DNA of 64,000 nt from Halolamina litorea (lineage in GTDB: Archaea; Halobacteriota; Halobacteria; Halobacteriales; Haloferacaceae). The notes under the pieces were generated by a model. It was not told where the DNA came from. It saw nothing but the letters and a program-made list of their open reading frames with translations, and made no database searches. The stretch spans positions 124,001-188,000 of the forward strand of contig NZ_JANHGR010000001.1 of assembly GCF_026616205.1 (NCBI RefSeq). Direction: 5' to 3'. Positions 19,107-57,329 of this stretch are shown in pieces (within the stretch, counting starts at the first letter, position 1; each line of letters begins with the position of its first letter). A program made the position numbers and the translations under genes.

Positions 19107-20294
19107 TCAGCGGATGACGTCGAGGTCGTTGTCGCTGTCGTCGTACTGGTCGCCGCCGTCGCTGGCGGGCGAGCCAGTGTGCTTGGCGTTGCTCTTCGCG
19201 TCGAAGTCGACGTCGTCGAAGTCGCCCTTCCCGAGTGCCTGCTTCGACGCGTCGGCTTGTTTCTGCGTGCTCGGCCCGAGCACCTGCGCGGACTGGACGC
19301 CGGTCATGATGGCCATGACCCGCACCTTCCCTTTGTAGTTCTCCTGGATCCGCGCGCCCCAGATCACGTTCGCGCTCGCTTCCAAGCGCTCGGTGATGTT
19401 GTCGGCGATGCCCTCGGCCTCTTTGAGCGTGAGGTCGGGGCCGCCCGTGATGTGGACCAGTCCGCCGCTGGCGCCGCGGTAGTCGACGTCGAGCAGCGGG
19501 TGGTTCATCGCGTCGTTGACGACCTCGTCGGTCTTGTTCGAGTCCTGGGTCTCGCCGACGAGCATCACCGCGACGCCGCCCTGATTCATGATCGTGGACA
19601 TGTCCGCGTAGTCCAGGTTGATCAGCGACGGCTGAGTGATGGTCTCGGAGATTCCTTTGACGGTCTCGGCGATGATCTGGTCCATCACCGAGAACGCCTT
19701 GCCGATCGGGAGGTTCGGCACGTAGTCGAGCAGGCGGTTGTTGTCCAGCACGATGATCGAGTCCGCCTCGTTGCGGAGCTTCTCGAGCCCTTCCTCGGCT
19801 TTCACCGTGCGGGCGCGCTCGACGTTGAACGGCGTCGAGACCATTCCGACGACGATGGCGCCCTGCTCCTTGGCGATGCTGGAGACGACGGGTGCGGCAC
19901 CCGTCCCCGTCCCGCCGCCCATCCCGGCGGTGACGAACACGAGGTCCGCGTCGCCCAGCACTTCCTTGACCGTTCCTTGGGCCATCTCGGTGGCGCGCTC
20001 GCCCATCTCGGGGTCGCCACCCGCACCGAGGCCCTGTGTGAGGGACTTGCCGACGAGGATCTTCGTGTCGGCTTCGATCATCTTCAGATGCTGTTTGTCG
20101 GTGTTGATGGCGACGGTCTCGGCGCCGTCGACCCCGATGTTGTAGAGTCGATTGATGGTGTTGTTACCCGCACCACCGGCACCGACGATGACGATCCGGG
20201 GGTCCCCGAACTCGTCACCGTCGCTGTCGACGTCCTGCATCGATCGCTGCTCGGCCTCCGCGTTGTCTAAAGCGTCTTGAACGATATCCTGCAT
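19107..20294 (-). CDS. ftsZ2: Cell division GTPase FtsZ2
   Basis: A tubulin-like GTPase. In haloarchaea FtsZ1 assembles the ring and FtsZ2 drives constriction. The 395-residue chain opens [19 protein letters not shown] and has the GTP-binding motif [10 protein letters not shown] and the T7 synergy loop NLDYADM. The C-terminus is disordered and ends DNDLDVIR. The N-terminal and C-terminal signatures and the position immediately downstream of a CdrS-type gene match FtsZ2 rather than FtsZ1. It begins four bases after the cdrS stop, so both form one operon. Confidence 0.95.
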
Positions 20295-20297
20295 GTA

Positions 20298-20477
20298 TTA
20301 CACCTTGGCCCAGCTGCGCTCACGACGACCGGTCCCCTCGGTCGCGTTACTTTCGTCGATCATCTCCCGGACAGCCGACCGGATCGCTTCGCTCCGGTTC
20401 GGGAACTCCCCGGTTTCGACCATCTGTTCGACCTCTTCGACCTGCTGTCGTGGTATACGCAGTGTGACACGCTCCAT
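20298..20477 (-). CDS. cdrS: Ribbon-helix-helix cell-division regulator CdrS
   Basis: A 59-residue protein: [20 protein letters not shown], then [20 protein letters not shown] and a basic tail. The opening beta strand VTLRIP and the SEAIRSAVR helix are the ribbon-helix-helix fold. Published work in Halobacterium and Haloferax describes CdrS directly upstream of ftsZ2 as a regulator of division and shape genes; the arrangement here is identical. A motif GTAAGACG recurs around its promoter and is a candidate self-operator. Confidence 0.92.
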
Positions 20478-20492
20478 TGTTTGTTTCCCCCG

Positions 20493-20642
20493 GTAAGACG
20501 AACCGGCGCGAGCCGTCGCCTACAGTCCCACCCGGGCGGGGTCCCCGCCCCGTCCGGCTCTGTAAGACGACCGTCTTACGCGTCGGGACAAACGTGGCTA
20601 TCTGTTAAAAAGATACCGGCGGTTTTACCTGTGTGTAAGACG
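20493..20642. promoter_or_regulatory. Candidate CdrS/CdrL operator cluster (four GTAAGACG sites)
   Basis: Four copies of GTAAGACG lie between cdrL and cdrS: 20493-20500, 20562-20569, 20572-20579 (inverted) and 20635-20642. The middle two form an 18-base inverted repeat, GTAAGACGACCGTCTTAC. It sits just downstream of the presumed cdrS TATA box (minus-strand TATCTTTTTAAC, 20604-20615), near the expected transcription start. Ribbon-helix-helix proteins bind such short inverted sites, so autoregulation is inferred. Confidence 0.65.
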
Positions 20643-20666
20643 TCGCCCGCAGTCGTCTGACGGCCG

Positions 20667-21116
20667 CTACGCGTGGTCCAACACGTCGGCGGTCGAGTTC
20701 CGTCTCCCACAGCCCGGACAGAACGCCCACTCGGGGTCGATCTCCTCGCCACACTCACAGTGTGGCTGTCCCCGGTGTTGCTCGCCGCAGTTGGGACAGA
20801 ACGCGTGGTCGGCGCTCACGGCCGCTCCGCACTGTTTACACGTCTCCTCGCCGTCGGCGGCCGGCGCGTCGTCGTCGTTCGCTCGGCCGAGGTTGATGTT
20901 TACGGTCAGGTCGGTGCCCGCCTCGTCGCCGTCGACGCTCACCGACGCCTCACGTGGTCCGTGGTCGACGGCCGCCACCTCCCGCTCACGGCCCACCGAC
21001 GGGTGTCGGTCGAGGAACTCCCGAAGCGCCTCGCGCATCACCTCGCTCTTCGAGGCGTCGAGGCCGTCCAGTCGCTCGACGAGCGCGTCGTCGGCGCGGA
21101 AGGTGATCTTGCTCAC
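20667..21116 (-). CDS. cdrL: CdrL-like regulator: ribbon-helix-helix plus double zinc ribbon
   Basis: A 149-residue protein. Residues 1-45 (SKITFRADDALVERLDGL, SEVMREALREFL) are a ribbon-helix-helix domain. The C-terminus has two zinc ribbons (CKQCG...CPNCG and CECGEE...CPGCG). CdrL in other haloarchaea has this design and is encoded upstream of cdrS-ftsZ2. The GTG at 21116 is chosen over an ATG at 21137 because a TATA box (minus TTACTTATAGG) is centred 27 bases upstream, giving a leaderless message starting SKITF. Confidence 0.85.
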   Translation of the reverse strand: MSKITFRADDALVERLDGLDASKSEVMREALREFLDRHPSVGREREVAAVDHGPREASVSVDGDEAGTDLTVNINLGRANDDDAPAADGEETCKQCGAAVSADHAFCPNCGEQHRGQPHCECGEEIDPEWAFCPGCGRRNSTADVLDHA

Positions 21117-21137
21117 ACCCGGGACGTGGGCAGGCAC

Positions 21138-21148
21138 CTATAAGTAAT
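21138..21148 (-). promoter_or_regulatory. TATA box of cdrL
   Basis: Minus-strand TTACTTATAGG is centred 27 bases from the GTG at 21116. That is the archaeal TATA-to-start distance and supports a leaderless transcript and the GTG start. Confidence 0.6.
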
Positions 21149-21268
21149 TTGCCCAGAACCGCCCGGAAGCGCCGACGAACCGGCCGGTTGGCGCACACAC
21201 CCGCGTACGCGTAGGAGTCACGGCGCCTCCTCGGAAGCCATAAACCCCCTGCGCCGGTTACTACCCGT

Positions 21269-56567: not shown

Positions 56568-57329
56568 TCACCAGTTACCGCCAACACTCACAGCAGGTGT
56601 TGACTGGTTCGTCAGCCACGGACCGAGAACGTCAGCGAGACGCTGATGCGCTTCGTCATACGAGAGTGGAGCAGGCGAATCCCCACGCTGCCCGCGATAC
56701 GACCCGAACTGTGTGTGGTTCATTCCCGTGATCTCTTGGCTTGTCGTGTCGGGCGGTAATCGGGTATTCGCCTCCTGGTAGCGTTCACGATTCAGAACGG
56801 TATCTGCGCTCCCAGTGACGCTGAGGACGGCGAACGGTTCATCGCGTATGTCTACGTTGCAGTAAGACGCGAACAAGACGAGCCCTCGGACGTCATGTGA
56901 ACTGGCGTACTGACAGGCGGCAACGCCCCCGAGTGAATGACCACCAACGAACCACGTCCGGATACCGGGATGCTGAGACCGAACGCGCTCGGCGGCGTCG
57001 GTACCGAGTAGCGCAAGGTTGAGCGGCATCTTCGGAACGAAGACCGTGACGTTCGCCCGCTTCGCTACCGGTGCGAACGTGCTGTAGTACGCATCCGGTG
57101 CGACACGAGCGCCGGGATAGAACACGACCCCGACAGTGGGGTCGGCCTCTGCCGGGCTGATAACGTGCACGCCGGCTTCTGTCGTCACGGTCACTTGCGG
57201 GTCGTCACGTATCTGCTGGACCGACGACTCCGATCCGTGATACGGCATTGAGAAGTAGAGCGAGACACCCCCACTCCCGACGAGTAGCACCACGAACAGG
57301 ACGGCGATCGCTTGCCTCCACCGGTTCAT
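56568..57329 (-). CDS. Membrane-anchored alpha/beta hydrolase
   Basis: A 253-residue protein. The N-terminal helix (AIAVLFVVLLVGSGGVSLYF) anchors it, with the catalytic domain outside. The nucleophile motif is VGGHSLGGVAA, followed by VLSVTGSADTV (Asp) and GMNHTQFGSY (His). It resembles dienelactone-hydrolase/esterase types; the substrate is unknown. The ATG at 57329 is preferred over one 60 bases upstream. It is the last gene of the accessory block and reads against the transfer operon. Confidence 0.82.
   Translation of the reverse strand: MNRWRQAIAVLFVVLLVGSGGVSLYFSMPYHGSESSVQQIRDDPQVTVTTEAGVHVISPAEADPTVGVVFYPGARVAPDAYYSTFAPVAKRANVTVFVPKMPLNLALLGTDAAERVRSQHPGIRTWFVGGHSLGGVAACQYASSHDVRGLVLFASYCNVDIRDEPFAVLSVTGSADTVLNRERYQEANTRLPPDTTSQEITGMNHTQFGSYRGQRGDSPAPLSYDEAHQRLADVLGPWLTNQSTPAVSVGGNW

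Follow-up and report, generated by a model that had tools for sequence, protein, structure and literature searches.

Which protein reads the repeats in front of the cdrS-ftsZ2 operon of Halolamina litorea, and with what effect on the operon? The window considered here is the whole stretch of 64,000 nt that was analysed, and the features of the locus are listed in Table 1. In relatives ftsZ2 and cdrS are co-transcribed (PMC7439475, PMC8406309). The cdrL gene lies upstream of cdrS and is kept there in most Halobacteria. Both cdrS and cdrL encode ribbon-helix-helix proteins, as the first-pass annotation of this DNA had stated, and both products match Pfam RHH_1.

Table 1. Genes and candidate regulatory elements at the cdrS-ftsZ2 locus (positions in the window)
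Feature	Position	Strand	Remarks
ftsZ2	19107..20294	-	TIGR00065, E 1.7e-118
cdrS, 59-aa ribbon-helix-helix regulator	20298..20477	-	NCBIfam NF058555 CdrS, E 1.9e-34; Pfam RHH_1
Half-site in the cdrS ribosome-binding region	20493..20500	+	~16-23 nt before ATG; position conserved
Candidate core operator GTAAGACGGTCGTCTTAC (minus-strand reading), inverted GTAAGAC heptamer pair	20562..20579	-	genome-unique, conserved
Predicted TATA box TTTTTAA of cdrS-ftsZ2	20605..20611	-	AT-rich box 32 bp upstream of the repeat; putative promoter
Distal half-site upstream of the TATA box	20635..20642	+	63 bp from core; position conserved
Extra GTCTGAC heptamer	20655..20661	+	20 bp beyond the distal half-site; seen in the window
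cdrL, ribbon-helix-helix + double zinc ribbon protein	20667..21116	-	Pfam RHH_1 + DZR

Repeats in the cdrS leader and their conservation

The annotation had reported four exact copies of GTAAGACG within 150 bases, and a scan of the window located them at 20493-20500(+), 20562-20569(+), 20572-20579(-) and 20635-20642(+); a fifth copy at 56862 is unrelated. Genome-wide the word alone is at chance level (17 copies in 3.02 Mb versus 14 for a reversed-pattern control), and the Poisson probability of four copies in 150 bp is about 2e-14 per window. Two of the copies had been said to form an 18-base inverted repeat after the cdrS TATA box. This repeat (GTAAGACGACCGTCTTAC; 8+2+8, composed of GTAAGACG-AC-CGTCTTAC) is indeed perfect, lies 32 bp downstream of TTTTTAA and, in the genome-wide check that had been proposed, occurred only once in this genome; the closest other places have 3 mismatches, which is about control or chance level. 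The core reads GTAAGAC-N4-GTCTTAC with heptamer centres 11 bp apart, and the heptamer GTAAGAC is a better unit than the eight-letter GTAAGACG. The core comes directly after the TATA box and covers or closely follows the predicted transcription start. The extra GTCTGAC heptamer, found at the same spacing in a Halolamina relative (L088), is of the type seen at CdrS targets (see below). On another contig, the window's own genome carries a second cdrS-ftsZ2-like gene pair (contig C2:151840-153032, L336) that has no GTAAGAC operator.

The annotation had made its operator depend on conservation of the motif in the orthologous intergenic regions, and the motif turned out to be conserved there: a search for GTAAGAC-N2..6-GTCTTAC hit 237 of 242 Halobacteria genomes, spread over 11 families and over 73 of the 74 genera, while the reversed control pattern matched in 4 genomes. 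With a single exception, each of the 237 matching genomes has the site at one place. In all loci inspected it lies upstream of cdrS, 86-149 bp before the ATG, and the core spacer varies in length from 2 to 6. Of the non-matching genomes, three were read in detail (G124 was left out of this reading), and they carry near variants at cdrS: GTATGAC-GTAAGAC-GTATGAC in G014, GTGAGAC...GTCTTAC in G018 and GTAAGAC...GTATGAC in G174. CdrS was found in 242 of 242 genomes, only one of them marginal; G229 is without a clear cdrS.

For leader statistics we used 63 non-redundant haloarchaeal cdrS leaders and scanned them for GT[AC][AT][GT]AC, the general form of the heptamer being the quasi-palindrome GTnWnAC. 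This yielded 296 heptamers versus 9.3 expected, among them GTAAGAC (263), GTATGAC (22) and GTCAGAC (8), and a purine follows GAC in 259 of the 263 GTAAGAC heptamers. Besides the core, a GTAAGAC close to the start codon is present in 58 of the 63 leaders, a mid-leader copy in 33, and a distal copy in 43, mostly upstream of the TATA box and with 53 or 63-64 bp as its usual distance to the core. In 48 of the 63 loci the core site is preceded by an AT-rich box that begins at 32-34 bp, so that the core would overlap or directly follow the expected transcription start; the 32 bp seen in the window fall in this most common range. The distances between close heptamers peak at 11 bp (48 pairs), followed by 12 bp (10), and 11 bp is about one helical turn. 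This is the spacing expected of cooperating ribbon-helix-helix dimers. Chance as the origin of the repeats is ruled out by their uniqueness, clustering and conservation. Pairs of the form GTGAGAC-N4-GTCTCAC with the same spacing were also seen at two places in one genome (G078:C1:1373352 and G078:C1:2019188); another ribbon-helix-helix regulator may bind there.

Heptamers in methanogens and at CdrS targets

A phylum-wide search provided 60 cdrS-ftsZ2 loci from classes other than Halobacteria, of which 27 are non-redundant. The word GTAAGACG is absent from the cdrS leaders of these 27 methanogen-side loci, where GTCAGACA and GTCTGACA prevail. GTnnGAC heptamers are present in all 27 (132 versus 9.2 expected), and a count by spelling gave 53 GTCAGAC and 9 GTATGAC. 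The heptamers form arrays in 11-bp steps, in direct as well as inverted orientation, and spacings up to 40 bp were 11 (12 pairs), 22 (10), 33 (10) and 12 bp (1). Two marks of a ribbon-helix-helix operator are thus found, short boxes that recur roughly once per helical turn (11 bp, or 11/22/33 bp) and a locus that encodes such proteins (CdrS and CdrL). In the 20 longer methanogen-side loci the region before cdrS holds no CdrL homolog, and CdrL has been described as confined to Halobacteria (PMC7439475); the operator architecture is therefore very probably older than CdrL. CdrS is the obvious predicted reader of the methanogen-side arrays. We conclude that the candidate operator is genuine and near-universal in haloarchaea, with a counterpart in methanogens, and infer binding to it from sequence.

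ChIP-seq of CdrS in Haloferax volcanii gave 18 sites; the targets include ftsZ1, dacZ, panA, hisB and psmB, and the cdrS promoter is not among the sites (PMC8406309). The CdrS motif of that publication is symmetric with its centre at about the 10th base, and we see 11-bp-spaced heptamers at its targets ftsZ1, dacZ, panA and hisB. We derived the target motif from the promoters of the named targets. Haloferacaceae ftsZ1 promoters carry GTCWGAC-N4-GTCWGAC or a one-sided form of it just upstream of the TATA region (GT[AC]AGAC: 17 versus 1.1 expected). The dacZ promoters are likewise rich in heptamers (14 versus 2.7 expected). The psmB promoters showed no heptamer enrichment, and not all published CdrS targets were thus recovered. 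A blind search of 12 genomes with GTNWGAC-N4-GTCWNAC returned, among others, matches upstream of ftsZ1, panA (Pan1), hisB and dacZ, all with GTCWGAC-N4-GTCWGAC or a close variant and with the geometry seen at cdrS. Since four published ChIP targets were hit in this way, CdrS most likely reads GTCWGAC pairs. The 11-bp centre spacing is common to cdrS and ftsZ1, whereas the spelling at haloarchaeal cdrS is GTAAGAC instead of GTCWGAC, and the two spellings are cleanly separated. The placement differs as well: the ftsZ1 and dacZ boxes lie upstream of the TATA box, the cdrS core, which is outside the published list (PMC8406309), downstream of it.

Heptamers are also abundant in cdrL promoters (80 versus 6.7 expected), and here most are GTCAGAC. 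Of 100 non-redundant promoters, 58 (e.g., L017, L021, L032) have them no more than 100 bp from the start; most of these boxes directly precede the TATA region, at 50-60 bp from the start codon. The boxes thus match those at ftsZ1 and dacZ in placement, which suggests that CdrS controls cdrL; a feedback loop between cdrS and cdrL is possible. In the window's own genome we found no CdrS-type boxes at ftsZ1 (L277), dacZ (L209) or cdrL (window 21117-21236), and the cdrS operator is its only pair of the GTNWGAC-N4-GTCWNAC class; this species may therefore have a reduced CdrS regulon. Halolamina relatives (L205, L372) retain the dacZ box that is missing here.

Candidate readers of the operator

The annotation had assigned the repeats to the ribbon-helix-helix proteins of the locus. 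Architecture, uniqueness, the position behind the TATA box and CdrL ChIP-seq (PMC7439475) all support such an operator, and as to the reader, the evidence points to an ancestral CdrS, to which CdrL was probably added in Halobacteria. We favour, at slightly better than even confidence, an operator read by CdrS for negative autoregulation of cdrS-ftsZ2, with CdrL as second reader in Halobacteria. The region 20478-20666 would act as operator of the operon, each GTAAGAC heptamer being the footprint of one ribbon-helix-helix dimer. Two dimers would bind cooperatively, on one helix face, to the 11-bp-spaced heptamers over the start site and block cdrS-ftsZ2 transcription, and the flanking half-sites would strengthen occupancy. 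CdrS, itself a product of the operon, would be the ancestral reader, its negative autoregulation holding the FtsZ2 level steady, and CdrL would provide a second input via the same region in Halobacteria. That repression would result is judged from one feature, the position of the core downstream of the TATA box, which is a repressor position; for Halobacterium, the literature presents CdrS as activating ftsZ2.

CdrS is favoured as ancestral reader because methanogen arrays exist without an adjoining cdrL and because haloarchaea lacking cdrL keep the site. A search with a profile built from the CdrL alignment (A1) found no full CdrL in eight genomes (G001, G002, G007, G026, G093, G136, G138, G183), which belong to 7 genera and 4 families; other genomes in one of these genera retain CdrL. 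All eight keep the core site (loci L148-L154, L371), showing that the site does not depend on the presence of CdrL. In 7 of the 8 cdrS is preceded, at a distance of up to ~1 kb and without an intervening cdrL, by a tRNA-Tyr gene, which in most of the eight is now the closest gene detected on that side; in 9 of 10 cdrL-bearing loci checked tRNA-Tyr lies beyond cdrL. From this placement, cdrL was probably lost cleanly and the operator retained. These genomes are at odds with the literature, where CdrL is said to be encoded by every member of the Halobacteria. In two of them (G001 and G007; L148, L150) three half-sites have jointly acquired a C behind GAC (e.g., GTAAGACC), which looks like a shift in the preference of the reader.

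The geometry common to the cdrS site and the CdrS targets ftsZ1, dacZ, panA and hisB further supports reading by CdrS, as do the invariant beta-strand of CdrS and its likeness to NikR (see below). On the other side, GTAAGAC differs from GTCWGAC, so that specificity may differ too, and the CdrS ChIP list lacks the cdrS promoter, though the N-terminal FLAG used in that study adjoined residue R3. The main rival builds on these points. It holds that CdrL alone reads GTAAGAC, an ancestral GTCAGAC site of CdrS having drifted and been handed to CdrL, which would insulate cdrS from its own product. ChIP-seq of CdrL-FLAG in Halobacterium gave the region upstream of cdrS as the only reproducible peak (PMC7439475), consistent with a core site that is unique per genome, although the text of that paper does not map a motif. 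The miss of cdrS by CdrS ChIP-seq (PMC8406309), the clear distinction of the two spellings and the prevalence of GTAAGAC only in the CdrL-bearing clade fit this rival as well. A site read by CdrL only should decay once CdrL is gone, yet the eight genomes without it keep their GTAAGAC pairs, and the geometry is older than CdrL. The retention argues against CdrL as sole reader and weakens this rival, which we consider rather unlikely.

Retention without CdrL and absence from the CdrS ChIP list would both be explained if a third, unrecognised DNA-binding protein of all Halobacteria read GTAAGAC. However, the profile search returned no CdrL-like candidate common to the cdrL-less genomes, and CdrS, being present throughout, suffices; a third protein is improbable. 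A role of the repeats at the RNA level, by folding the 5' leader into a hairpin or into alternative pairings around the start codon, is rejected as hardly credible: the core palindrome and the start-codon half-site, both behind the TATA box, could be transcribed, but one copy lies upstream of this promoter, one-arm variants (GTAAGACggtGTATGAC in Haloquadratum, GTAAGACggctcGTATGAC in Halorientalis) break arm pairing without compensation while keeping the heptamer form, the spacer length varies, and methanogens use direct as well as inverted heptamers at 11-bp steps.

Autoregulation by CdrS with CdrL as second reader may be part of a wider circuit, which we put forward tentatively, as possible but short of probable. 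An ancient CdrS autoregulatory circuit based on 11-bp-phased heptamers would extend from methanogens to haloarchaea, and two codes would operate in Halobacteria, GTCWGAC for CdrS at the ftsZ1, dacZ, panA, hisB and cdrL promoters and GTAAGAC at cdrS for CdrL and CdrS. Expression of cdrL would be driven by CdrS, and CdrL would in turn act on cdrS-ftsZ2. If true, such a loop would run with a delay and could serve to time division or to buffer it.

Comparison with known systems and significance

The CdrL binding seen in Halobacterium salinarum concerns the same promoter region, operon and pair of ribbon-helix-helix proteins; the text of that study gives no motif or operator sequence and does not address an architecture kept in CdrL-less haloarchaea and methanogens, as seen here (PMC7439475). 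Among bacterial systems, the E. coli NikR nik operator (GTATGACG...CGTCATAC) has a half-site, GTATGACG, that is a close cousin of GTAAGACG, and the NikR beta-strand MQRVTITL resembles the R3-T5-R7 strand of CdrS (R3-V-T5), which is invariant in 188 sequences from methanogens to haloarchaea. In NikR, residues of this strand contact bases. The nik half-sites are farther apart (GTATGA-N16-TCATAC, compared to 11-bp spacing here), and NikR is a nickel-binding tetramer, while CdrS has no metal domain. In the operators of Arc, MetJ and CopG, short boxes recur about every helical turn and are occupied by ribbon-helix-helix dimers that cooperate, in many cases for autorepression. Compared to these, the cdrS operator is archaeal, tied to tubulin-based division, and has two ribbon-helix-helix proteins at its locus. 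The cell-cycle regulator aCcr1 of Sulfolobales is likewise a small archaeal ribbon-helix-helix regulator of division genes, but the matches of CdrS and CdrL to the NCBIfam aCcr1 model fall far short of its cut-off. In our literature searches no paper was found that names a GTAAGAC operator; a ribbon-helix-helix operator array is of a known kind, and this instance, its reach and the two spellings are not described in the literature searched.

The control of division genes in archaea is poorly understood. The nearly invariant element described here is probably the exact DNA element through which the FtsZ2 level is set in Halobacteria. Our analysis proposes a code for the CdrS regulon at base level and predicts that cdrS and cdrL are joined in a feedback loop, and the haloarchaea that lack cdrL and bear the operator are natural strains in which the roles of CdrS and CdrL can be separated.
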